This document shows positions 10,210 through 43,683 of a stretch of 59,153 nucleotides of DNA, one piece after another. The notes below the pieces were generated by a model. The model did no database searches. It worked only from the letters and a program-made list of their open reading frames with translations, and was not told where the DNA came from. This DNA is from a virus. A program made the position numbers and the translations under genes. Positions within the stretch are counted from its first letter, which is position 1; every line of letters starts with the position of its first letter. The stretch covers positions 1 to 59,153 of IMG/VR virus record IMGVR_UViG_3300031521_000072; one strand, written 5' to 3'.

Positions 10210-13200
10210 TTATATTTTTGTTAGTATCCCTTGTTTTTCCAATTTGGCTGAAAGAGCTTTACCGGCAGGAGAATAAACCCCAGAACCTTGTATGGAATAG
10301 CCTTCAGGCAATAATGAACGGGCTTTTTTATTCATAAAAGTGGCAATCCCTTTCCCTCTGAATTTATCATCCACATAAATATTTGTCAATGATAAAACTT
10401 TAGTGTCTGAATTATAGCTTCCAGTCAATTTAGCATTTCCTGCTGAAAATATCCGTTCTGTATTATCTTTTTTCCAAACTCCTTGAATATTAAAATCCAA
10501 ATCCATATTAAATCTTGCATTAACAATCTCATTTGGATTTTCATTAATTATTTTTAAAGTAGGTTTAGCCCTTTCAAACTTAACTACATCAGAAACAATA
10601 TCCAATCTATCATCCTCAAATTTTAAATTTTTAATGATATTCCAATCTTCAACTAAAGAAGTTTTGGAAGTTATTTTTTCTTCAACTACCTTTTCAACAG
10701 GAGGAACTTCAACAACTGTAGCATCCGGCAAAGTAGGAAGTGCAATACAACGACAATTATGTACAACCATTCCTTTGGCTATATATGATTCATCCTCTTC
10801 CACACTCAAATTATATAAAGGTCTTTGTCTTTTCAGCTTCCAACGTTTAATACTTTCAATGGATAAAGCTGTTGTTTGGTACTGACCTGTATGATTGTAA
10901 ACTACTCTGATTAATTCTGTTCCTATCTCTTCAATACATGAATTAATCTTTGCCCCGGTATAACGTAAAACAAACCAACCTTCATTTTCAATTTCCTTTT
11001 GACGGGCTTCATCTTTTGCTTTATCTTTATGCCAATATTCTCCATCACATTCAATAGCTATCTTCAAAGCCGGGATAACAAAATCAACCCTGTATTTCAA
11101 TATCGGATATTGACTCATGTATTCTATTCCTAAACGATCTAACAAATCAGCCATCTGTTGCTCAATCCACGTCATTTTACCTTCCCAACGCATGATAGCT
11201 AACTTGTTATTCAATCTATTCTTTGAATCAGCTAAATAGGATATTTGCATTGATGCCTGAGCTTTCTTTACAACCTCTGGATCATTCATTGGATTATTTG
11301 CTTTCATACGTTTTGATGTACGTTCCCTTAATTCAGGAGTATGTGAACGCTCATTATTTTTAGCATGAAAAGCTTCATCCATCCAAGTTCCATATGTACC
11401 GTCTTTTACCATTGCCCGGGTTTTATTATTTGCCGCTTTCGTGGTAGCAAATCTATCCCGTTCACCTGATTTGTATTGACGTATATTTGAAAGGCTGTTC
11501 TTTTTTGATACATTTTCACGATGCTTTGGATCAGCCCATTGTTTATCGGTTATGTCTTTACTCAAACAAGTACGTGAACAATATGTCCTGTAATAGGGTA
11601 CTAATTCATTGCAACGTTTACATTCATTAGCCAAATACATTATTGAATCATTAACAGTACATTTCCCGGCTTCTTTCCATCTTGAAAAAGTATTACCTTT
11701 GGTTGATACTAATACCAAATGATTGGATGTCAATGATACCGTTTGCCCTCCTACAAATTTGAATGTTATTACTTCAGTACCTTCTTGTCCTTTTGATCTT
11801 GGTAAAGCATAAACCTTTTTAAATCTCTTTTTATGCGTCAATACTTTATCCCCAACAACAACATTTCCAATGGGTTTCCAACCTTCAGAAGTATATACAG
11901 GGGTTTGAGGATCAATAAAACATTGCGGGTGAACTGGAATCAAGCCCTCAGCCTCAGTCAAAGTATAAATCTTGCCCTGAAGCCCTGCACAGATACTACA
12001 AACACGCCCATCCCCGGCTGTTGTAAATTCTGCTTCCACGTTTACCCCCTCAGCCCCCCAGTTACTGTATTCCTGTATGGTAGCTGCATGATGGGTTCTT
12101 ATCACTTCCGTGCGGGCCAATATCTCTGCCCTGCGCTTGGCTGGCATAAAGTACTCAACCTGATTGCCCGACTTGTTGGTGTACTTTACTGCCTGACCTA
12201 AAGTACCTGCCCCGCTTCCGTCAATAGCATGTATCATTTTTTTAGCTAGGAAACTTGGCCCATCCCCATCCGCAAGCCCCTGCGCTAATATACGACTGAT
12301 TTGACTGTCCATTGCTGTCGTTATACCCTTTAAATCGGTATAAGTGCGACTATACACCAATCCCAATCGGTCAATGTGAAAAGGGGTTGTCATAGACATT
12401 TCTATGCCTCCTGTTTGTTCCATACCGGGTATGTTTTTGAATCCCGCTTTTTTGAGTTCACTCCGTGCCCGTATGACTCCCCTTTTATAACTATCTTTGA
12501 TATATACGTTTGTCCATGCTTGATTTGCCCCTGCCCCCAATTGATTGATCTTGGTTGTTTCCAATAAACCTTTATCAACCTGACCATTCAGCCATTCCAT
12601 AAATTGTTCAACCTTCTCCTGACTGGTACTGTATTGAAAAGCTTTATGTCCTATTTCCTGATTTACTTGTAATTCATTGCGGATTAAAGCGGTGTTGATT
12701 CTTTTCAAATCCTTTATCTTGATTTTTCCTACCAATATAGGTTCATCTTTTCCCAACCATTTTTCTTTTCCTTGCTTATCTTTGTAATAATAAAAAGGAT
12801 GCCGATAATAGTGATTTGAATTTATAGACCATTCACAAGTTCCTACTTTTCCCCAATGATTTGCTCTACGGTACAAAACCCCGCTTTTAATTTTGTAAGC
12901 AGAACCTGAATCTGATTTGAATATATCTACATCAAGCCCATCCCATTCTGATTTTGGGACTACTGAAAAACTCCCTTTGGTGGAAAGAAAATAATCACGT
13001 TTAGATACCTTTGGCATTGCCGTAGTTATATCCTGAAACCCTGCTTTCTTCAAATCGCCTTCATCCAACTTTTGCTGACTCCAGTATGACCGTTTACTTA
13101 CAAATTCACCTAACCCCTTTTTTTCTGTTTTTTTCTTTGCAGTACGATGACCTTTGATCCCACTTCCCGGGCCACCATTGACTTGAAATATACATACATT

Positions 13201-13431
13201 TTCAATAATATCTTCTGCAAACGTAATTAATGAAGTTGGCTTTACCAATCCAAAACAATCCTCCTCTACCACTGCCGTTTTAATCAACTTAACCAAATCA
13301 TCAAACCTCTTATTTAAGGCTTTCCCAAAAGCATTCCTCAACCCGGTTGTATGAGTGGGATCATATGCTTTTAGATTTTGCTGCTGCTTAGCATTAACGA
13401 TTAAATAACTATGGTTACAGGTTTCACACAT
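10210..13431 (-). CDS. MuF-type head morphogenesis protein with intein and GNAT-like tail
   Basis: Start taken at the ATG at 13431, since a GTG at 13449 would overlap the previous gene. The phage Mu gpF motif is GRVCSICAGLQGKIY ... PVHPQ then CRCIALP. An intein (10756..11922) separates HPQ from CRC, so the spliced protein is about 684 residues. N-terminal to this is a long region with GGPGSGIKGHRTAKKK. After the MuF motif comes a C-terminal GNAT-like segment (IYVDDKFRGKGIATFMNKKA; GSGVYSPAGKALSAKL). MuF proteins join portal and head assembly, and C-terminal enzymatic or toxin extensions are known in the family. The role of this tail is unknown. Confidence 0.85.
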   Translation of the reverse strand: MCETCNHSYLIVNAKQQQNLKAYDPTHTTGLRNAFGKALNKRFDDLVKLIKTAVVEEDCFGLVKPTSLITFAEDIIENVCIFQVNGGPGSGIKGHRTAKKKTEKKGLGEFVSKRSYWSQQKLDEGDLKKAGFQDITTAMPKVSKRDYFLSTKGSFSVVPKSEWDGLDVDIFKSDSGSAYKIKSGVLYRRANHWGKVGTCEWSINSNHYYRHPFYYYKDKQGKEKWLGKDEPILVGKIKIKDLKRINTALIRNELQVNQEIGHKAFQYSTSQEKVEQFMEWLNGQVDKGLLETTKINQLGAGANQAWTNVYIKDSYKRGVIRARSELKKAGFKNIPGMEQTGGIEMSMTTPFHIDRLGLVYSRTYTDLKGITTAMDSQISRILAQGLADGDGPSFLAKKMIHAIDGSGAGTLGQAVKYTNKSGNQVEYFMPAKRRAEILARTEVIRTHHAATIQEYSNWGAEGVNVEAEFTTAGDGRVCSICAGLQGKIYTLTEAEGLIPVHPQCFIDPQTPVYTSEGWKPIGNVVVGDKVLTHKKRFKKVYALPRSKGQEGTEVITFKFVGGQTVSLTSNHLVLVSTKGNTFSRWKEAGKCTVNDSIMYLANECKRCNELVPYYRTYCSRTCLSKDITDKQWADPKHRENVSKKNSLSNIRQYKSGERDRFATTKAANNKTRAMVKDGTYGTWMDEAFHAKNNERSHTPELRERTSKRMKANNPMNDPEVVKKAQASMQISYLADSKNRLNNKLAIMRWEGKMTWIEQQMADLLDRLGIEYMSQYPILKYRVDFVIPALKIAIECDGEYWHKDKAKDEARQKEIENEGWFVLRYTGAKINSCIEEIGTELIRVVYNHTGQYQTTALSIESIKRWKLKRQRPLYNLSVEEDESYIAKGMVVHNCRCIALPTLPDATVVEVPPVEKVVEEKITSKTSLVEDWNIIKNLKFEDDRLDIVSDVVKFERAKPTLKIINENPNEIVNARFNMDLDFNIQGVWKKDNTERIFSAGNAKLTGSYNSDTKVLSLTNIYVDDKFRGKGIATFMNKKARSLLPEGYSIQGSGVYSPAGKALSAKLEKQGILTKI
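10756..11922 (-). mobile_element. Intein with PD-(D/E)xK/Vsr-like homing endonuclease in MuF
   Basis: An in-frame insertion of 389 residues begins with Cys (CFIDPQTPVYTSEGWKPI, block A), has a block B-like SLTSNHLVLVST, and ends SYIAKGMVVHN followed by Cys (block F, HN/C). Excision joins PVHPQ to CRCIALP and restores the MuF motif exactly. Inside are paired cysteines (CKRC and CSRTC), an NUMOD-like RMKANNPMNDPEVVKK and a nuclease core YRVDFVIPALKIAIECDGEY, fitting the Vsr-like homing endonucleases. It is probably both splicing and homing competent. Confidence 0.93.
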
Positions 13432-13435
13432 ATCC

Positions 13436-14179
13436 TTATTTATACACACGCATTGATTTAACGGTAAAATTTGTACGATCTACTTTTTGTGCCCCTCCGG
13501 CATTGTTTATTATCACATGGTTTTCATCCTTGGATACAAACTCAGGATCAGAGGAAGTAAACAAAGCTGTAACAATTCCATCAGTATAAAATCGGTAACC
13601 ATTGGGGAGAAACTCAACTGCAAATTCATGAAACTGGTTATCTGCTTTGAAACCTTTGAACCCTGACTTGAATTTACGATATGACTCATCATCCGTATAT
13701 CCCCAATGAATGTTTACTTCAGTTTTGTGATTAATAACTTCCATTATATCAATCTCTGGGGTGATTGCTTTCTTTGTATGATTTGGTACTTCCCTGTCCT
13801 TTTTTAACAGCCATATTGCAGGCCAACTGTCCGGAGTATTACATACAAATACCCAAACCCCCATTGAATGAGAAAACTTATCCGCACTGTGAATCATGCC
13901 AGATGTCCATAAGGAAAGACCATCCCTGTTGCTTTTTCTATATTGTACATCTCTATAACAAGCAATATTCAATCCTTCTTCTGTTATGTTGACAGTATCT
14001 TTCGATAGATATACAGGATTATCATTATAAAATGAATCATCTACTACAAAAAAGTTATCCAAATTTTTAAAATTATCTGAAAACACAAGATTTCTATTAG
14101 TAAAAGTAATTTTCTTACAATACTCTTTGAAGTATCGAAATCTTACCTTGTAAAATATATTTAATAAATATTGTATCAT
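13436..14179 (-). CDS. Glycoside hydrolase family 16-like enzyme
   Basis: A 247-residue protein. The catalytic signature ExDxxE of GH16 is present as PEIDIMEVINH, with the two glutamates and the aspartate in place. The preceding DSWPAIWLL and following TEVNIHWGY, and later FHEFAVEFLPNGYRFYTDG, are typical for GH16 beta-jelly-roll enzymes acting on beta-1,3/1,4 glucans or galactans. There is no clear signal peptide. It lies between head genes, so it may be a virion-bound depolymerase (inference). It overlaps nothing and is 5 bp from the MuF ATG. Confidence 0.82.
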   Translation of the reverse strand: MIQYLLNIFYKVRFRYFKEYCKKITFTNRNLVFSDNFKNLDNFFVVDDSFYNDNPVYLSKDTVNITEEGLNIACYRDVQYRKSNRDGLSLWTSGMIHSADKFSHSMGVWVFVCNTPDSWPAIWLLKKDREVPNHTKKAITPEIDIMEVINHKTEVNIHWGYTDDESYRKFKSGFKGFKADNQFHEFAVEFLPNGYRFYTDGIVTALFTSSDPEFVSKDENHVIINNAGGAQKVDRTNFTVKSMRVYK

Positions 14180-21633: not shown

Positions 21634-22099
21634 ACCAATAAAAACCCAAATCAATATGCATTTGAACCTTATCAGGCAAATTGCTTGGTCTTTCAGTACC
21701 TCTACTGGTTTGGAGTATTCTGACCTATATTCTGAGGGATGTTTATGCTGGTTGGAAAATGAGCACCTGTGGAATAAATCCAAGGGTAAAATAACAACCT
21801 TTATGTGGTGGATCATTCAATCCGGGCTTAAAAACTTTGTTGCTAAACAAAACAAATATAAAGCCCCTTTGAAAGAATTGACCTCAACTTCAGATAAGCC
21901 CATGATGTATATCCCGTATCTGGAAAAGCTTTCATTTGAGGCTGTTTTCATCGCTAAATTAGTGATAAAAAACCCTGAATGTTATCTTTATACTTCTAAA
22001 AAAGAAGCTATTAAAACCATTGAAAAGTGTCTTATTTCCAGAGGTTGGGAAAAGGAACGAATCAATGAAGGATTTAAACAACTTGAAAATTCATTTTAA
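21620..22099 (+). CDS. Sigma-70-like factor, region 2 type
   Basis: 159 residues. The stretch IRQIAWSFSTSTGLEYSDLY, then SEGCLCWLENEHLW and KGKITTFMWWIIQSGLKNF, follows sigma region 2 (a helix, the D-L-x-x-E-G core-binding turn, and the F/T-x-W-I promoter-melting helix). The C-terminal 50 residues could hold a region 4-like helix pair. It could redirect host RNA polymerase to phage promoters; see the TTGTATAATA motif. A related DNA-binding protein without sigma activity is possible. It ends overlapping the GIY-YIG gene by 1 bp. Confidence 0.62.
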   Translation: MKRNKPIKTQINMHLNLIRQIAWSFSTSTGLEYSDLYSEGCLCWLENEHLWNKSKGKITTFMWWIIQSGLKNFVAKQNKYKAPLKELTSTSDKPMMYIPYLEKLSFEAVFIAKLVIKNPECYLYTSKKEAIKTIEKCLISRGWEKERINEGFKQLENSF

Positions 22100-22809
22100 T
22101 GATAAGAACCCACTACAATTTTAAAATTTACTGTATTACAAGTATTTCCGGCAAACAATATATTGGGCAAACAAAAGCTACTATTGATAAACGTTGGAAA
22201 ATGCATAATTGTAATAACAACAATACAGTTATGGGTAAAGCAATCAAAAAGTATGTGGTATCTTATTTTTCAATTATTGTATTAGATAAGGCAAATACCA
22301 AAAAACAAGCAAATATACTTGAGGCTTTTTACATTAAAAAATTTAATACTTTAATTCCAAATGGGTATAATATGTCAGAAGCCGGAGGGGGTTGTGTTCC
22401 CGGTTTTAAGCATACGGAAAAAGTAAAAAAAGAAATATCAGATACAAAAAAGATTTATTACTCTGATCCCATAAAAAGAAAAGAACAAAGTGAAAGAATG
22501 GGTTGTTTTTTCAATACCCCTGAAGGAAAAGAAATTCAACGTTCAAATTCCTTAAAACAAAATATCCCAAAAATAAAGGAAAAAATAAAAAATAAATTAA
22601 AAATAATAAGAAGTACTGATGAATATAGAAAAGCAAAATCAATTGAACAAAAATTAGTTTGGAATAATGTTCAATTGATAAATAAACATTCTGAAATAAT
22701 AAAAAAACAATATGAAAATGGTAGGATAACTTGGAATAAAGGTAAAAGCACAGGCCCACGTTCAGAAGAAACAAAAAGGAAAATATCAGAAACTCTAAAA
22801 AATAAATAA
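22099..22809 (+). CDS. GIY-YIG homing endonuclease with NUMOD3 motifs
   Basis: 236 residues. The GIY-YIG core is IYCITSISGKQYIGQTKATI (I-Y-C in place of G-I-Y), with the catalytic Arg in DKRWKMH and Glu in LEAFYIKKFN, then GYNMSEAGGGC. NUMOD3-type DNA-binding motifs follow: PGFKHTEKVKKEISDTKK and TWNKGKSTGPRSEETKRK. The gene is more AT-rich than its neighbours and sits without gap between the sigma-like and primase genes, as for a free-standing homing element. Confidence 0.9.
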   Translation: MIRTHYNFKIYCITSISGKQYIGQTKATIDKRWKMHNCNNNNTVMGKAIKKYVVSYFSIIVLDKANTKKQANILEAFYIKKFNTLIPNGYNMSEAGGGCVPGFKHTEKVKKEISDTKKIYYSDPIKRKEQSERMGCFFNTPEGKEIQRSNSLKQNIPKIKEKIKNKLKIIRSTDEYRKAKSIEQKLVWNNVQLINKHSEIIKKQYENGRITWNKGKSTGPRSEETKRKISETLKNK

Positions 22810-29240: not shown

Positions 29241-30005
29241 ATGGCTAAAAAAGCAAGTGCCCAGAAAGTAGTAAAAACAGCTTATCAGAAAGCTGCTGAA
29301 GAATTGAACGAAGTTCTTGGATTGACTGATCCCAGTATTGATACCACATTGAGTGACGAAGAGTTGAAACCGTTGTTGGTGGAAGCTATCACCCTGATTG
29401 CTGATGGTGACGAAATCAGTGAAGAAACTCAGGAAGTTGTTGATGAACTGTCCGCTGAAGCCCCGGCTGAAGAAGAGGAGGAAGAAGATGGTGCAGATTT
29501 GGCTGATGAAATCACTGCCTGTAAAAAGGTATCTGAACTTCAGGTTATCATCAAAGCAAACGATGCTTTCAAAAAAGCTGCAAAGAAACTGAACGCAATG
29601 ACAAAAGTTTCTGAATTGAAAGCTACCATGTTGGCTATCGTTGCCCCTGAGGAAGAAGAGGAAGAACAAGCCCCTGCAAAAACTCCTGAAAAACCAAAAC
29701 CAGCACCTAAAGCCAATGCAAAGAAAGATGCCAAGCCAGAAGGGGAAAAGAAAGCCAAAGGATTTCCAGCACGTGAAGGCAAATCAAGAATTGTTTGTAT
29801 TTGTGATGCTGTAAAAACAATCGGTGCAAAAGGGATGACAATAAAAGCTGTTGCTGAAGCATCCAACAAATTGTACATCAAAGAAGGTGGTGCTGGAAAG
29901 GATAACGTAAAACAATCACTACATACCTTCAAAGTGATTATGCCAGTACTGGTTGAATTCAACCTGATTAAAGTTGATGGTGAGAACGTTTTTATGGCCA
30001 AGTAA
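29241..30005 (+). CDS. Acidic protein with the module shared with the SSB
   Basis: 254 residues. Residues about 83-138 (LADEITACKKVSELQVII ... KVSELKATMLAIVAPEEEEE) match the module that occurs twice in the SSB at 45773. Acidic and Pro/Lys-rich linkers flank it. The C-terminal 70 residues (IVCICDAVKTIGAKGMTIKA; LVEFNLIKVDGENVFMA) look like a small winged-helix domain. It probably acts with the SSB on DNA, but its role is unknown. Confidence 0.65.
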   Translation: MAKKASAQKVVKTAYQKAAEELNEVLGLTDPSIDTTLSDEELKPLLVEAITLIADGDEISEETQEVVDELSAEAPAEEEEEEDGADLADEITACKKVSELQVIIKANDAFKKAAKKLNAMTKVSELKATMLAIVAPEEEEEEQAPAKTPEKPKPAPKANAKKDAKPEGEKKAKGFPAREGKSRIVCICDAVKTIGAKGMTIKAVAEASNKLYIKEGGAGKDNVKQSLHTFKVIMPVLVEFNLIKVDGENVFMAK

Positions 30006-31057
30006 TGGGGGAATACAAAAATCCAATAAAGATAAGGGGCACGCATATGACGTGCCCTTTGCCTTTAACATTAGAATCTTACTGGACATGTGAGGCAGAT
30101 TGCCTTCATTGTATGGGTAGGAGGTTGAATCAGATATGGGGGAATGAACAAAAATTTACAAACCCTGACAATGTTCATAGAATCCTTACCAATGCATTAA
30201 AGAAAGAAAATACAACACCAACAGCCAAAGCTTTATTTAAAAAGAAAGCTTTTTTTATTGGTAGGAAGGCAGATTCATATCAGCCTATTGAAAAGGAAAA
30301 GCATATAACACACCAATTGGTTGAGATTTTAAATGAACTTGATTGGCCTTATGTGATCTGTTCTAAATATCAGGAAAACATGGTTGTGGATACTCCCCTG
30401 TTTTTGAATAATAAGAATGCAAATATTTTAGTTGAGATTACAGCAGGAGGAGAATCTGACAGGGAATTGTTTGAATTCAATAGAACAACACCGGTTGAAG
30501 ATAGGTTAAGAATTGCAAGAAAATGGAAACATAGTGGTATGAATGTGGGTGTCCGTGGTGAGCCTTTTATACCCGGTTATCATACCACAGAACAATTTCG
30601 GGACACCTTAAAGCTGATTAAAAGCTATGGTTTGTTGTCCTACAATATATACAACCTGCACATCAATGAATACACCATGAAACGTATGCATGCTGCAGGT
30701 TTTGATATTGAACGGATATGGGAAATGAATCAGGATGATAGGTGGAAACCTATCCAGAAAAGACTTTGTATGATAGCTGAACAGGAAGGTATAGAGCTTG
30801 GCTGTCCAGATTTCGTAAATGTCCCAAAATGCCACACAAGTACCACAAATACATGTTGTGGTATATCCGTTCCGAATGCCTTTACTTTTAACACACATGC
30901 TTGGCGCAATGAGCTTATAAAAGGGGAAGCCCCGGAAGATGTTTTGAAAAATACTTGGGAGGGGGTAGGAACTGATATAGATTTTAAAATGGCTGAAACA
31001 ATAGTCTATAAAAAAGAGTCAAAAGATTTTTACACCTTTAAAAATGCAGATATATGA
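30005..31057 (+). CDS. Radical SAM protein (SPL/COG1533-like), intein-free paralog
   Basis: 350 residues. The iron-sulfur motif is CEADCLHC (C29, C33, C36; CX3CX2C), followed by segments typical of spore-photoproduct-lyase-like proteins: ILVEITAGGESDRE, TPVEDRLRIARKWKHSG and NVGVRGEPFIPGYH. A C-terminal Cys group (GCPDFVNVPKCHTS ... CCG) resembles that of the split paralog at 33788. Start ATG overlaps the previous stop. It would cleave SAM to make a radical on DNA, RNA or a small molecule; substrate unknown. Confidence 0.75.
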   Translation: MGEYKNPIKIRGTHMTCPLPLTLESYWTCEADCLHCMGRRLNQIWGNEQKFTNPDNVHRILTNALKKENTTPTAKALFKKKAFFIGRKADSYQPIEKEKHITHQLVEILNELDWPYVICSKYQENMVVDTPLFLNNKNANILVEITAGGESDRELFEFNRTTPVEDRLRIARKWKHSGMNVGVRGEPFIPGYHTTEQFRDTLKLIKSYGLLSYNIYNLHINEYTMKRMHAAGFDIERIWEMNQDDRWKPIQKRLCMIAEQEGIELGCPDFVNVPKCHTSTTNTCCGISVPNAFTFNTHAWRNELIKGEAPEDVLKNTWEGVGTDIDFKMAETIVYKKESKDFYTFKNADI

Positions 31058-32798: not shown

Positions 32799-33794
32799 AT
32801 GGATTTGAAATATGAAGATTTAGATTATTGGGCACTAAGGAAGCTGATTGCCCGGGTTGTACCCCGCATCACTCAACTGGTATCCTCCAGACGTAAAGCA
32901 CATGCTGTGCAGGAAAAGGGCAGGAAAAAGAATTATAGTCAATTCAATCTCCGTCACAATGAATGGCGTAAACAGGAAAGGTTATTGAATACAGAGGAAA
33001 TTAACAGCTTCCTTGAAATATCCATCCGGGCTGCTGCCTGTCCTATGCCTTTTAACATGGATGTGTGGGATGGGCTTGTTTGTATTGCTAAAGGGCAACG
33101 AATAACAACAAATAAAGGAAAAATTCCAATTGAAGAAGTTATTGTTGGAGATATTGTTTTGTCGTATAATGAAGCTACAAAAGAAACGGAATGGAAGGAG
33201 GTTTTAAAAACAACCAAATCAATAAAAGAAGATATTATTGAAATGGGGACTTCTTTGGGTTTATTGAGATTGACCCCTGATCACAATATTTTTACCCAAC
33301 GGGGATGGATTGAAGCTGCTTATGTGGATATTTATGATACCATTTATACATATGAAGAAGGGATAAAAGGAATTATTGGCGTTCCTGTGGATACTTATTA
33401 TTATTTGGATGAGGAGCCAACAGAGGTGTACGATGTAACCGTACAAGATAATCCAAACTTCTTTGCTGAAGGGATGCTGGTTCATAATTGTCCTTTTGCC
33501 TGCATTTATTGCTTTCCTTCCGATACTAAAATCATGATGGTTGACGGTACGGAGAAAGTGATTGAAAGAATATTGGTTGGGGATAGGGTAATATCTTTTA
33601 ATGAGACAACAAAACAACTTGAACCCGCTGTTGTAACTCAGCCAATGAAACGACATTATAATAAAGAATTGATCTGTATAGAAACAGAGGATGGGAAAGT
33701 GCTAAAAATGACACCAGAACATCCGATATATACACAAAGAGGGTGGATTGAAGCAAAAGGGTTAACAGAGAAAGATGAGGTGTTGATATGGTAA
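32799..33794 (+). CDS. Split radical SAM protein, N-part with mini-intein and N-half of split intein
   Basis: 331 residues: N-extein 1-94 (ending FNMDVWDGLV), mini-intein 95-230, extein CPFACIY (231-237), then the N-half of a second intein, 238-331, which ends with DEVLIW at the usual endonuclease insertion site. The frame stops at TAA inside ATGGTAA, which starts the next gene. The two inteins abut the first and third Cys of the radical SAM CX3CX2C motif. The intact enzyme would be 476 residues after both splicing events. See the partner at 33788. Confidence 0.9.
   Translation: MDLKYEDLDYWALRKLIARVVPRITQLVSSRRKAHAVQEKGRKKNYSQFNLRHNEWRKQERLLNTEEINSFLEISIRAAACPMPFNMDVWDGLVCIAKGQRITTNKGKIPIEEVIVGDIVLSYNEATKETEWKEVLKTTKSIKEDIIEMGTSLGLLRLTPDHNIFTQRGWIEAAYVDIYDTIYTYEEGIKGIIGVPVDTYYYLDEEPTEVYDVTVQDNPNFFAEGMLVHNCPFACIYCFPSDTKIMMVDGTEKVIERILVGDRVISFNETTKQLEPAVVTQPMKRHYNKELICIETEDGKVLKMTPEHPIYTQRGWIEAKGLTEKDEVLIW
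33081..33488 (+). mobile_element. Mini-intein at first Cys of the radical SAM motif
   Basis: 136 residues, Cys95 to Asn230. Block A is CIAKGQRITTNKGKIPIEEV, block B LRLTPDHNIFTQRGW, block F EVYDVTVQDNPNFFAEGML then VHN followed by Cys. There is no endonuclease domain. Cys at position +1 is the first Cys of CPFACIYC, so excision regenerates the [4Fe-4S] ligand set. Confidence 0.92.
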
Positions 33795-34507
33795 CTTGTA
33801 ACTATTGTGGTAAAAAGTTTGTCTGTATAACTAATACTCATTTGAAACGGCATAATCTTAACCGGGAAGTGTATTTGAAACTTTACCCTGATTCAGAATT
33901 AACAAGTAAAGAACACAGAGAACACCAACACGATGCTTTAATGGGTAAGAACGTTGGAAATGTACGAAAGGATGCCCGAAAGAGAATGAATTCAAATAAT
34001 CCAATGAAAGATCAAAAAATTGCTACTAAAATGGGTAATGTAAGGAAAGTTAAAATAGCAACAGGAGAAATTGACGTCATGAGTAATTTCAATCATTTAC
34101 CTACCAATCATGAAAAACATTTAATTTATTGGTTTGCTGAATGGGGTATTCCTTTACAGTACGTGGGGGATGGAAAAGTAATGATTGGGGGGCTTTGTCC
34201 TGATTTTATTAATGAGGATTTGAAAATCATTCTTGAATTGAATCTCAATTTTACTTCCCAGCCAAGGAATGAAATGAATGAAAAAGAAAGGATTTACAAT
34301 TCATTAGGCTACAAAGTAATTTGGGTTACTAAAATGTTAAAATCTTATGTGAAATCATGGGTGTGTCCTTTTTTCAACGGAGGCTTAAAATCAAAACGTA
34401 TTATCAAGATTTGGAAAGAGAATAACAATAAAGGCAGGAAACAGGTTTACAACATGGAAGTAACTCCAAACAACACCTATGTAGCGAATGGAATTGTTGT
34501 CCATAAT
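33510..34507 (+). mobile_element. Split intein with Vsr-like endonuclease at third Cys of the motif
   Basis: N-half: Cys238 onward, CFPSDTKIMMVDGTEKVIER with block B LKMTPEHPIYTQRGW, in the upstream gene. C-half: in the next gene, ending NMEVTPNNTYVANGIVVHN then Cys. Between them, in the second frame, lie a C2H2-like finger (CNYCGKK ... HLKRH), an NUMOD-like RMNSNNPMKDQK and a Vsr-like core (LCPDFINEDLKIILELN; YKVIWVTK). The reading frame changes by -1 at 33788..33794 (ATGGTAA), exactly where the endonuclease begins. Confidence 0.88.
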
Positions 34508-35635
34508 TGCTTTGCAAATGCTTTCCGGGCTTCTCTATACACCGCATTCTTCGATAATAGTAAAACGATGGGATTTCGCCACTGCAATCCAACCTACTAC
34601 AAACAGGAAATGGATAAAATGGATAAGTACCGGGGAATGGGTGAAGCTGAAAAGAAAAAACTATCTGGAATCAATAAAGCTTATGCATATGATATGCCTT
34701 TGCGTTTGGGTATCCGGTTTGAGGATTTCCTGAAAGATGAGGGCAAAGAAAAGGTATCACTGGAAATGTTACAATACTTGAAAAAAATAGAGTACCCGGT
34801 GATGATTAATAGCAAATCAGGATTGCCCAGTGAAGGAAAGTACTTGGAAGCATTGGCTGGAAATAAAGCCAAAGCAGCTATTCATATCACCCTGATCAGT
34901 AACAATGATGAAATATTAAGTAAGCTTGAGCCCGGTGCTCCTCCTTATGCTGAAAGATTGAAAGCTTTAAAAGTTCTGAGTAAAGCCGGGATCAGGGTTG
35001 TTGCCCGCATTGAACCTTATCTTTTCCTGCTGAATGATGAGAAGGAGGATACAGAACGATATATTGAAGAAGTTTGGGATGCAGGTGTAAGAAATATCAC
35101 TTTTGATACTTATTCCTATACTGCCCAAAATCAGGGTATCCGTCAAAGTTTCATAAACAAAGGATTTGATTATGACCGTTTGTTTACAGCCGGGTGTGAT
35201 AGTCAACCACTGGGAAGCCTATTGTTGGGTAAATTCATGGAATTGTTCCGGGCTAAAGGATTCAGTTGTAGTACCTTTGATATGGGTAATGTACACACCA
35301 ATGATGATGCTATTTGTTGTGAGGTTGGGGATTGGTTTGAGGGAGGCTTCAATTATGGCAGTACTGTTATGGCAGCCCGTTTCATTAAAGACCGGGGAAA
35401 GCTTTTCACCACTTGGAGTGATTATGAAAGCTGGGTTGAAGATCATGGGGGCTTCCTGACTGAAGAGATACGAATGGATGTAAAACACTTGTGGAACTTG
35501 GAAGGGAATTTTGCATACAGCCATAAATGGGCTGTGGGCTTGGTTCCAGTAGGAAGGAATGAAGATGGCCTTGTGTGGGCTATTGATACAACAGTGGGGG
35601 ATTATCGTATGGACTTATTAAATTCAATTATATGA
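33788..35635 (+). CDS. Split radical SAM protein, C-part with endonuclease and intein C-half
   Basis: 615 residues: endonuclease and intein C-half 1-240, C-extein 241-615 beginning CFANAFRASLYTAFF. The C-extein is SPL/COG1533-like: YPVMINSKSGLP, AIHITLISNNDEILSKLEPG, AERLKALKVLSKAGIRV, then a Cys group SCSTFDMGNVHTN ... ICCEVG paralogous to the protein at 30005. The ATG overlaps the previous stop by 7 bp, so the two parts are probably coupled in translation and joined by protein trans-splicing. A programmed frameshift is the alternative, but no slippery heptamer is visible. Confidence 0.88.
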   Translation: MVTCNYCGKKFVCITNTHLKRHNLNREVYLKLYPDSELTSKEHREHQHDALMGKNVGNVRKDARKRMNSNNPMKDQKIATKMGNVRKVKIATGEIDVMSNFNHLPTNHEKHLIYWFAEWGIPLQYVGDGKVMIGGLCPDFINEDLKIILELNLNFTSQPRNEMNEKERIYNSLGYKVIWVTKMLKSYVKSWVCPFFNGGLKSKRIIKIWKENNNKGRKQVYNMEVTPNNTYVANGIVVHNCFANAFRASLYTAFFDNSKTMGFRHCNPTYYKQEMDKMDKYRGMGEAEKKKLSGINKAYAYDMPLRLGIRFEDFLKDEGKEKVSLEMLQYLKKIEYPVMINSKSGLPSEGKYLEALAGNKAKAAIHITLISNNDEILSKLEPGAPPYAERLKALKVLSKAGIRVVARIEPYLFLLNDEKEDTERYIEEVWDAGVRNITFDTYSYTAQNQGIRQSFINKGFDYDRLFTAGCDSQPLGSLLLGKFMELFRAKGFSCSTFDMGNVHTNDDAICCEVGDWFEGGFNYGSTVMAARFIKDRGKLFTTWSDYESWVEDHGGFLTEEIRMDVKHLWNLEGNFAYSHKWAVGLVPVGRNEDGLVWAIDTTVGDYRMDLLNSII

Positions 35636-40561: not shown

Positions 40562-41236
40562 ATGAAAATAGGAACTAAATCAGTGTTATACGGAGCTCAT
40601 TGCTTTTTTATCCATCCAATCTTTGTAATGGTAGCTTGGTGGAAGTTGTACGGTTTTCCAAATAATATTCAATATTGGATTGCATTTTTTGTACACGATC
40701 TTGGATATTGGGGAAAACCTAATATGGACGGCCCCGAAGGAGAAACACATGTTGAACTTGGAGCGAATATTATGGGTTGGTTATTTGATTTCCATATTGG
40801 AACGTTACGTGGAGAATTCTATAAATTAACTCACGGCCAAATATGGATGGCTTGTTATGAATGGGTATATGTAGAAAAATACTCATGGAAATGGGCTGAA
40901 TTTTCAAAATACCATTCAAGATTTTATGCCAAAAAAGATAAAGCACAATATTCAAAACTTTGCGTGGCTGATAAATTAGCTATCTGTATTGAACCAATGT
41001 GGTTGTATTTATTTAGAGTTAATTTGACAGGGGAAGTGAATGAATACATGGCTAAAGCTGCCGACAAAGAAGGTAAAAATGCTTCAATGAAATTAACAAC
41101 GGTAAATCAAAAAGAATGGTTTAAAAGCATGGGGGCTTATCTGCGTGAATGGGTTGAAACTCATAAAGATTTGAAACCAGATACGTGGACACCAGAGTAC
41201 AAAGAATCTATTAATGATCAAGGGGTATGGAAATAA
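40562..41236 (+). CDS. HD-domain-like hydrolase
   Basis: 224 residues. AHCFFIHPIFVM, then WIAFFVHDLGYWGKPNMDG (the HD pair), KYHSRFYAKKDKAQYS and LCVADKLAICIEP (distal Asp) suit an HD-type metal phosphohydrolase, possibly on nucleotides. It lies between the exonuclease and polymerase genes and overlaps the latter by 10 bp, so a link to nucleotide pools or DNA synthesis is likely. Confidence 0.6.
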   Translation: MKIGTKSVLYGAHCFFIHPIFVMVAWWKLYGFPNNIQYWIAFFVHDLGYWGKPNMDGPEGETHVELGANIMGWLFDFHIGTLRGEFYKLTHGQIWMACYEWVYVEKYSWKWAEFSKYHSRFYAKKDKAQYSKLCVADKLAICIEPMWLYLFRVNLTGEVNEYMAKAADKEGKNASMKLTTVNQKEWFKSMGAYLREWVETHKDLKPDTWTPEYKESINDQGVWK

Positions 41237-43683
41237 ACCCAAAGACAAGTGAAGCTTATGACCTTATGCATCAAGGTATATTAGCACTGGCAAAGGCGGA
41301 AAGGCAGGGATTTCGGATTGATGTTGAATATTTGGAAAACAAAAAATCCCACCTAACACGCAAAATATCCCGGCTGGAAAGTCAATTTGAAAATAGTACT
41401 TTTTACAAGAAATGGCAGCGTCAGAGTACCACTAAAATCAACCCCGGGTCAGGGGATCAGCTTGGAAAGTATCTTTACACCACTTTGGGACTAAAGCCAC
41501 AGAAACTAACAAAAACTGGTAAAGGTTCAACGGATGAAGAAGCCTTGGGACTTTTGAATTTACCGGAACTGAATGCCATATTAGAAGTAAAGAAACTGAA
41601 GAAAATCCGGGATACTTATTTGGATGGTTTTCTGAGGGAGCAAATCAATGGACAGATTCATCCTTTCTATAACCTGAATACAACGGTAACATACCGTTCA
41701 TGTATTGCTAAAGGAACGAAAATATTGGCTGTTAGAGATTTTTACAGGTATCCGAATGGAGTTCCTATTGAAAAGATCAAGGAAGGGGATTTTGTTTATT
41801 GTTTTGATGATAATTTAAACCCTGCTATTCAAAAAGTACTTTGGTCTGGAAAAACCGGACATAAAGAAGTTATCAGGATTCATTATTCAGCGAAAGGTGG
41901 GGGAGGAAAAGGATTTTTGGACGTTACCCCTGAGCATCTTATACGCGTAATTAATGGGGAATACGTTGAAGCCCAGAATTTAGTTGGGGATTTTAGAAAG
42001 CCTGAAGAAAGTAAAAGACTTGGAAAAATAAGAACTTTGTCTTGTAAACGGGTTGATGTTAATTTAAATTTTACCGGTCATGTAAAAGGGGGTAAAGGTG
42101 TTCTTGAACATCGTTTGGTCTATTCCCAGTTAATTGGGGATTTAAAGCCTGCGGAAGTTGTTCATCATAAGGATGAGGATCATTTCAATCATACACCATC
42201 TAATTTAAGAAAAATGACTTTAAAACGTCATTCATATCTCCATTCTTTAAAAGTATCTGATGAAATAAAACAAAATAGGATTAAGACGTTGAAAGAAAAT
42301 CGACATTTGATTACCTATACTTCAGGAGCTGAAAATCCTTTGAGTATGAACTTGACAAAATTTCAATGTTACCGATTATTGGCACAAAATTCAGGAAAGT
42401 TAAAAGGGATTAATTTTGATTTTGGTACAATTAAAAAGTATTTAGAAATAAATGGAATAGACCCTTTTAAAGTTCGATTGCGTTTTGATAAACATGGGGA
42501 ATATATTTGGAAATCTAATTTAGAAAAAATATCTATTTTAGGTCGTTCTGAGGTTTCTAAATTATTAGGGCATAATCATTATCGTTTGTTAGAATTATAT
42601 TCGATTTATGGGATTGATGAAAAGCGTAAATGGGGAAATCAATTTGGTGCATTTAAACCCGGAAATCACCAAATCACAAAGATTGAATGGGTAAACAAAA
42701 AGGTAGATGTTTATGATATTGAAGTAGAAAAATACCATAATTTCTTTGCTAATGAAATTTGTGTACACAATTCATCAAATAACCCGAATTTCCAAAACCT
42801 TCCTGCCCGAGATGAGGAGTCAATGAGGATGGTTAAAGATGCTATCTTTCCACGTTTAGGGCATCAATTGTTGGAAGTGGATTTCAAGGGTATAGAGGTT
42901 GCTGTGAATGCCTGTATAAATAAAGACCCGGTATTGATACATGACATCCTTCACGGAGATATGCACGGGGATATGGCTAAACAGATTTTCAAAGTACCTA
43001 ATTTTGATAAAAATACACCAACTCATAATACCCTACGTTCAGCAGCAAAGAATGGGTTTGTATTTCCTGAGTTTTATGGGGATTATTTCAAAAGCTGTTC
43101 TGAAAACCTTGCTACACGCTGGGGAAAGCTCCCCCAAACTAAATGGTCAATGGGGCAGGGGATAGCTTTTGAGAAAACATTTTTATCAAACCATTTAATC
43201 AGCCAAGGAATAACATCATTTTCCTCCTTCACAAAGCATATTGAAAATATTGAAAATGAGTTCTGGCATGAACGTTTTATGGTGTATGGTAAATGGAAGG
43301 ATACTTGGTTCAGGAAGTACCAAAAGAACGGATTCATTGACCTACCCACAGGCTTCCGGTGTAGTGGGGTTATGAACAAGAAACAGGTTTGTAACTACCC
43401 GGGGCAGAATGGGGGTTTTATGTGCCTGTTGTGGTCTTTGATTGAGGTGACTGATATTCTTGAACAAGAACAAAGGGATACCAAAGTGGTGGGGCAAATC
43501 CATGATAGTTTGATACTTGATGTACATCCTGATGAATTATCTCATATCCTTGAAGTAGTGAAATACGTTACCTGTACAGCCCTTCAAAAACACTTTGATT
43601 GGATAATTTTACCCATGGAAGTGGATGCTTCCATCTCAGGTATAGACCAATCTTGGGCAACCAAGGAAAAGTGTAAAATATAA
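41227..43683 (+). CDS. Family A DNA polymerase (polymerase domain) with intein
   Basis: 818 residues as encoded, 461 after excision of the intein at 41701..42771. The N-extein ends TTVTYRS and the C-extein begins SSNNPNFQNLPAR, the conserved Pol A segment. Motif A is LLEVDFKGIEVAVN (D552, E557), motif B TLRSAAKNGFVFPEFYG (R604, K608, Y617), and motif C VVGQIHDSLILDV (D760). There is no exonuclease domain in this gene; it is encoded at 39335. This is the phage replicative polymerase, used with the clamp and loader here. Confidence 0.92.
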   Translation: MEINPKTSEAYDLMHQGILALAKAERQGFRIDVEYLENKKSHLTRKISRLESQFENSTFYKKWQRQSTTKINPGSGDQLGKYLYTTLGLKPQKLTKTGKGSTDEEALGLLNLPELNAILEVKKLKKIRDTYLDGFLREQINGQIHPFYNLNTTVTYRSCIAKGTKILAVRDFYRYPNGVPIEKIKEGDFVYCFDDNLNPAIQKVLWSGKTGHKEVIRIHYSAKGGGGKGFLDVTPEHLIRVINGEYVEAQNLVGDFRKPEESKRLGKIRTLSCKRVDVNLNFTGHVKGGKGVLEHRLVYSQLIGDLKPAEVVHHKDEDHFNHTPSNLRKMTLKRHSYLHSLKVSDEIKQNRIKTLKENRHLITYTSGAENPLSMNLTKFQCYRLLAQNSGKLKGINFDFGTIKKYLEINGIDPFKVRLRFDKHGEYIWKSNLEKISILGRSEVSKLLGHNHYRLLELYSIYGIDEKRKWGNQFGAFKPGNHQITKIEWVNKKVDVYDIEVEKYHNFFANEICVHNSSNNPNFQNLPARDEESMRMVKDAIFPRLGHQLLEVDFKGIEVAVNACINKDPVLIHDILHGDMHGDMAKQIFKVPNFDKNTPTHNTLRSAAKNGFVFPEFYGDYFKSCSENLATRWGKLPQTKWSMGQGIAFEKTFLSNHLISQGITSFSSFTKHIENIENEFWHERFMVYGKWKDTWFRKYQKNGFIDLPTGFRCSGVMNKKQVCNYPGQNGGFMCLLWSLIEVTDILEQEQRDTKVVGQIHDSLILDVHPDELSHILEVVKYVTCTALQKHFDWIILPMEVDASISGIDQSWATKEKCKI
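41701..42771 (+). mobile_element. Intein with HNH endonuclease in DNA polymerase
   Basis: 357 residues, Cys159 to Asn515. Block A is CIAKGTKILAVRDFYR, block B FLDVTPEHLIRVING, block F VDVYDIEVEKYHNFFANEI then CVHN, followed by Ser. The endonuclease is HNH type, VVHHKDEDHFNHTPSNLRKM, with a helical DNA-binding stretch after it. Excision restores TYRSSSNNPNFQNLP exactly. The insertion point lies between the thumb and motif A, in a conserved segment. Confidence 0.93.

Follow-up and report, generated by a model that had tools for sequence, protein, structure and literature searches.

Two inteins surround the iron-sulfur motif of a phage radical SAM enzyme, and one of them is split between two genes

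We analyzed a virus record from IMG/VR (IMGVR_UViG_3300031521_000072), taken at its full length of 59,153 bases and hereafter called the window. It represents a tailed phage and encodes terminase, portal and head proteins as well as replication functions. Our subject is a gene for a radical S-adenosylmethionine (SAM) enzyme that is divided between two overlapping open reading frames, ORF1 and ORF2, and that holds two inteins at separate sites in its CX3CX2C iron-sulfur motif (Table 1). Intein a lies directly before the first motif cysteine and intein b directly before the third, and two of the three Fe-S cysteines are the +1 residues of these inteins. At site b, a motif cysteine also stands at position −3 relative to Cys1 of the intein (CIY/C). 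A preliminary description of the locus had placed two inteins around the peptide CPFACIY, one of them split at its endonuclease position by a −1 frame change at ATGGTAA, and had predicted a joined extein of 476 residues. The coordinates of the reading frames and junctions bear out this layout to the base, the stop codon of ORF1 does overlap the start of ORF2, and reconstruction from the sequence gave joined exteins of 476 amino acids. The ligated junction peptide predicted for this product is ...DGLVCPFACIYCFANAFR...

Table 1. Parts of the two-ORF radical SAM gene in the window.
Feature	Position	Strand	Basis
ORF1: N-extein, intein a, CPFACIY and N-half of intein b; 331 aa	32799..33794	+	ORF reading, Pfam/NCBIfam matches
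N-extein of the radical SAM protein, 94 aa	32799..33080	+	tblastn against intein-free relatives, alignment
Intein a: contiguous mini-intein without endonuclease, before first motif Cys; 136 aa	33081..33488	+	CIAKGQ...LVHN; Cys1, TPDH, HN/C+1
CPFACIY: sole extein between the inteins, with motif Cys 1 and 2	33489..33509	+	21-nt spacing as in intein-free relatives
N-half of split intein b, before third motif Cys; 94 aa	33510..33791	+	CFPSDT...VLIW; Cys1 and TPEH intact
GAGGTG, Shine-Dalgarno-like, 5 nt upstream of ORF2 ATG	33777..33782	+	kept in L013 and L032
ATGGTAA: overlap of ORF2 start and ORF1 stop, 7 nt, −1 frame	33788..33794	+	kept in three diverged phages (window, L013, L032)
ORF2: endonuclease-like region, C-half of intein b and C-extein; 615 aa	33788..35635	+	ORF reading, Pfam/NCBIfam matches
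Endonuclease-like region, ~190 aa: N-terminal MucR-like zinc finger, NNPM motif, PD-(D/E)XK-like core	33788..34357 (boundary approximate)	+	weak DUF559 and ROS_MUCR matches, hhalign, low-confidence model
C-half of intein b, blocks F and G	34358..34507 (N-terminal boundary approximate)	+	TIGR01443 25.8 bits, over cut-off; ends GIVVHN
C-extein, first residue the third motif Cys (CFANAFRAS); 375 aa	34508..35632	+	Radical_SAM match after joining

Both insertions have the features of class 1 inteins. A scan against Pfam and NCBIfam returned the intein N-terminal splicing region (TIGR01445) at 50 bits, and NCBIfam returned the C-terminal splicing region (TIGR01443) at 32 and 26 bits, all over the cut-offs. 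Cys1, the block B TxxH, the C-terminal HN and Cys+1 were intact in both window inteins and in all ten inteins of relatives that we compared. The relatives came from scans of IMG/VR with the C-extein, a C-extein alignment and the N-extein; this survey covers contigs that match a few conserved peptides. Among them were 54 distinct empty alleles with an exact C...C..C motif, and because these have precisely the 21-nt CPFACIY spacer between the same extein halves, both insertions in the window are precise and in frame. Intein b has in addition the form of a natural split intein: its halves are on separate ORFs and the break falls at the endonuclease position, as it does in the phages L013 and L032. 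The two window inteins are ~35% identical to each other. Relatives of intein a in PDB are the Spl DnaX mini-intein and NrdJ-1, and those of intein b include NrdJ-1, a natural split intein.

The joined extein matched the Pfam family Radical_SAM (PF04055) with 30.1 bits against a cut-off of 29.5. A model of an intein-free relative (pLDDT, or predicted local distance difference test, of 86) had the radical SAM fold, with spore photoproduct lyase (SPL) as its nearest structure (E = 4.5e-6). After joining, the protein has both the CX3CX2C motif and the fold of the superfamily. Its NCBIfam scores for the Rv2578c and PA0069 radical SAM families were 48.7 versus a 430-bit cut-off and 43.6 versus 360, respectively; judged by these scores, it is a relative and not a member of those families. 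The joined extein keeps all 82 of the columns that are invariant among 38 intein-free relatives. Six of the seven other intein carriers likewise keep every one of these residues, and the seventh keeps 81. The ratio of nonsynonymous to synonymous polymorphism (pN/pS) was 0.17–0.44 for every segment, which indicates purifying selection on all pieces.

A search of related phages for the same layout, as the preliminary description had suggested, found the split of intein b again in L013 and L032 and a mirror-image double in L065, discussed below. L013 and L032 are diverged from the window (extein identity about 65%, intein pieces 54–74%), and both have the arrangement GAGGTG-N5-ATGGTAA. Synonymous sites are near saturation among the three phages, so this overlap was kept by selection or function and not through recent ancestry.

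We propose the following route to a working enzyme. Intein a, a mini-intein, would excise in cis from the ORF1 product. Translation of ORF2 would begin separately, through coupled initiation at its overlapping ATG; the N-half of intein b at the end of ORF1 would then associate with the C-half that, fused to the endonuclease region, begins ORF2, and the two would trans-splice. Only after both reactions would a single chain contain the three cysteines, two from CPFACIY and one from the start of the C-extein, that bind [4Fe-4S]. We infer that splicing occurs, and we put the probability that one cis- plus one trans-splicing event is needed before the [4Fe-4S] site exists at roughly 0.85. The preliminary description had reached the same dependence, and it appears to be the best-supported reading: the splicing residues are intact, the 82 invariant residues are retained, every segment shows purifying selection, and the split start recurs in two diverged phages. 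Several points weigh against it. Block F of intein b reads VYN versus VYD in the site-a inteins, and a second radical SAM gene of the phage might cover part of the function. Furthermore, the activity of the endonuclease region is doubtful, because its similarity to known nucleases is weak and the EDxHD His is missing.

It is possible, though improbable, that trans-splicing works but is regulated, for instance by redox gating, such that the split and the Fe-S position form a switch and are not merely a tolerated parasite. The motif cysteine at −3 of site b is the kind of N-extein cysteine that can pair with Cys1. There is also a precedent in the Pyrococcus abyssi MoaA intein (Callahan et al. 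2011), where, as described in PMC10663303, a disulfide between an N-extein cysteine and Cys1 blocks splicing under oxidizing conditions. However, the −3 cysteine is dictated by the Fe-S motif itself, and most relatives are intein-free, indicating that the enzyme does not need such regulation.

The dependence on trans-splicing would disappear if a programmed −1 ribosomal frameshift produced one long precursor from which both inteins spliced in cis, and the −1 relation of the halves with their 7-nt overlap fits this idea. We consider it very unlikely. In the window and in L013, a TGA closes the ORF2 frame 12 nt upstream of the ATG, which leaves 16 nt open, and no X XXY YYZ slippery heptamer was found in this open interval of either phage. 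The heptamer AAAAAAT of L032 is absent from both. What is conserved is the ribosome-binding-like element and the ATG, and the site-a splits of other phages have other frame relations. Because the ORF2 frame is closed in two of the three phages and no slippery heptamer is common to all three, separate initiation of ORF2 is much likelier than frameshifting.

Two insertions plus a split within one gene could also be the mark of a decaying, non-functional host of selfish elements whose activity is provided by a paralog, and the phage does have a paralogous radical SAM gene at 30005..31057. We give this only a slim chance. All invariant residues are retained, purifying selection is evident, and the reading frames are open in the carriers that we read; moreover, 61 of 71 relatives have the paralog too, which makes retention of the pair the normal state. 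This second gene (+ strand) is intein-free, has a CEADCLHC motif and belongs to a related family. It forms part of a conserved same-strand gene cluster around the radical SAM gene, which we followed in 71 loci. The other neighbors were genes for unassigned proteins of 259 aa (66 loci), 286 aa (61) and 332 aa (55), a uracil-DNA-glycosylase-superfamily/exonuclease gene (49) and DNA polymerase A (39), all counts being lower bounds as the loci are short. Together with the nearby glycosylase-superfamily/exonuclease gene and the conserved 286-aa gene, the second radical SAM gene may belong to a DNA-modification module.

Finally, the locus is almost certainly not a normal one-piece intein, endonuclease included, whose frame was broken by a mistake in sequencing or assembly: although a single −1 shift is all that separates the halves, three other IMG/VR contigs (L003, L004 and L031) have the same DNA with 0–2 mismatches over 6.2–13 kb, the split included, L013 and L032 share the ATGGTAA overlap and GAGGTG, and no single-frame endonuclease-bearing intein was found in this gene among the relatives. 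An unshifted single frame, named in the preliminary description as evidence that would count against the split, was not seen in any of the three contigs, all of which show the shift.

We compared occupancy and layout across the family. About 65 distinct loci comprised 54 empty alleles, three with an intein at site a only (L014, L042, L044), six at site b only (L013, L032, L060, L072, L075, L080) and two at both (the window and L065); L189 is an additional site-b carrier known from a partial locus. Site a holds a contiguous mini-intein in the window and a three-part intein with a free nuclease gene in L014, L044 and L065. In L042 (4902-5979), nuclease and N-half at site a share one ORF, with a second ORF for the C-half, the reverse of the layout at site b of the window. 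Site b holds either an intein with nuclease and C-half in a single ORF (window, L013, L032) or a contiguous mini-intein (L060, L065, L072/L075, L080). The layout of a fractured gene with a free-standing endonuclease occurs at site a in L014, L044 and L065, and not in the window, where the C-half follows the nuclease in the same frame.

The double arrangement is not unique to the window. In L065 (also L067, L068 and L077; 3760-7122), site a is in three parts, consisting of the intein N-half, a 381-aa nuclease gene and the intein C-half, and site b is occupied by a contiguous mini-intein. L065 is an independent mirror image of the window: a double-intein radical SAM gene that is split at a and contiguous at b. 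All seven of the endonuclease-bearing inteins examined were split and all five distinct endonuclease-free ones were contiguous, an association with a chance of 1/792 if random, although related inteins are not independent. Outside these contigs, almost nothing in the annotated phage collection resembled the radical SAM protein (one 35% match), and the genome collection yielded three contigs from metagenome-assembled genomes with relatives, all intein-free.

The EDxHD signature consists of E and D followed by His and Asp. The window nuclease region keeps E109, D139 and E150, as do those of L013 and L032, and no His aligns with that of the signature. The preliminary description had mentioned Vsr-like endonucleases of fractured phage genes; the window region bears only a distant resemblance to the Vsr/DUF559 kind, and with the His missing we rejected the name Vsr/EDxHD for it. 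Its match to DUF559 was weak and under the cut-off (E = 0.013–0.06), and so was that to ROS_MUCR. A model of the endonuclease and C-half built from three sequences had low confidence (pLDDT 61) and matched nuclease folds weakly, none significantly. Comparison by hhalign linked the window-type nuclease regions to the DUF559-type site-a nucleases at 93%. At site a, the L014 and L042 nucleases are good matches to DUF559, the former also having NUMOD3, and the four nucleases of this site keep E...D...E-x-D-G...H...D. These similarities suggest that the window region is probably a PD-(D/E)XK homing endonuclease, possibly an inactive one, and we infer that it is or was used for homing.

In the phylogeny, the inteins at site a, that of the window included, make up a single clade with 87/88 support, and the split inteins at site b make up a separate one (98/98). 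On the extein tree, by contrast, their carriers are dispersed: each site accounts for five changes, and the occupied L032 is the sister of the empty L034. The clades and the scattered carriers point to homing or precise loss and not to descent alone, and homing would be the means of spread. L072, occupied at site b only, is sister to L065, occupied at both; the second intein of this lineage therefore probably moved into, or out of, a gene that already had one. This pattern agrees with a report (PMC10643990) that closely spaced pairs mostly arise by invasion of alleles already holding one intein, and that in some pairs one member lacks an endonuclease. As the sites are only 21 bp apart, repairing a break in either would be expected to copy the pair, and an intein could hitch-hike in this way. 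We tentatively offer a joint reading, which is possible but should be held loosely: the motif would be a two-site intein hot spot with two Fe-S cysteines as +1 nucleophiles, where endonuclease-bearing inteins are split, become contiguous after loss of the endonuclease, and carry an endonuclease-free partner along, the window and L065 being two independent outcomes.

Other inteins and endonucleases were observed in the window and among the scanned contigs. The head morphogenesis gene (10210..13449, −) contains a contiguous 389-aa intein with a DUF559/Vsr-like nuclease, and the DNA polymerase A gene (41227..43683, +) matches Intein_splicing and HNH_3, which brings the phage to at least four inteins. 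A free-standing homing endonuclease gene (22099..22809, +) matches PHROG 314. In two Vibrio phages, K391 (OZ196571.1; L092:2410-3480) and 1.027.O (L093:601-1671), a helicase intein has an open frame (0 stops in 1071 nt) and contains, in another frame, an ORF for a 256-aa zinc-finger endonuclease. The two inteins differ at 11 of 768 overlapping nt versus 17 of 303 outside, and 7 of the 11 overlap differences are silent in the endonuclease frame, compared with 2 in the helicase frame. Apparently, this is an overprinted homing endonuclease, and such a state may be a step between the contiguous and the fractured form of an intein.

Several known systems share parts of the arrangement. Fractured genes that combine a split intein with an EDxHD/Vsr endonuclease were reportedly described by Dassa et al. 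in 2009 (NAR 37:2560; cited in PMC12350094). The window gene is similar in being a phage gene interrupted where an intein has its endonuclease, with halves predicted to trans-splice and a probable PD-(D/E)XK-like nuclease. It differs in that, as in L013 and L032, nuclease and C-half form one reading frame, which makes two genes, and that the nuclease has no EDxHD His; in addition, the window has a second intein 21 bp away. The intein-containing Rv2578c proteins (NCBIfam NF038136) have an SPL-like radical SAM host and an intein at the same site b: in the profile, position 69 is the first Cys, the intein starts at 76, the position of the third motif Cys, and the extein resumes at 335. That intein is contiguous and single, however, and the window protein scores far under the family cut-off. 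In the literature, we found no report of Rv2578c with an intein. In P. abyssi MoaA, the blocking extein cysteine belongs to the Fe-S motif and occupies position −3, like the one at site b of the window. The MoaA intein also resembles those of the window in sitting in a radical SAM enzyme, but it is single and contiguous and belongs to a cellular archaeal enzyme.

Pairs of inteins are known from haloarchaeal MCM, where they are neighboring, and from mycobacterial DnaB (PMC10643990; PMC6195587). They too put two inteins in one protein, with one an endonuclease-free mini-intein in some pairs, but unlike the window pair they are not described as split. Trichodesmium DnaE combines a split intein with contiguous ones in a single host that needs both cis- and trans-splicing; it is a cyanobacterial DNA polymerase whose inteins do not lie around a metal motif. 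To our knowledge, the seven-residue spacing around a metal motif is particular to the present case and would make it the tightest cis and trans pair. If the proposed reading is correct, a metal site exists only after cis- and trans-splicing reactions seven residues apart, and adjacent inteins as distinct as these might serve three-piece protein ligation. The family provides a natural series in one conserved gene (empty, a, b and both; contiguous, two-part and three-part) with which one can test the origin of fractured genes, why endonuclease-bearing inteins split, the effects of neighbors on homing, and redox sensing at Fe-S cysteines. The preliminary description knew of no described case of the arrangement. 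In a literature where papers mentioning both radical SAM and inteins were judged mostly by title or abstract, we likewise came across no Fe-S motif flanked by two inteins of which one is split, but each component has precedents. That is, fractured genes, double inteins and the redox-gated MoaA intein were all known, and it is their combination that is new, found twice independently and in opposite orientation.
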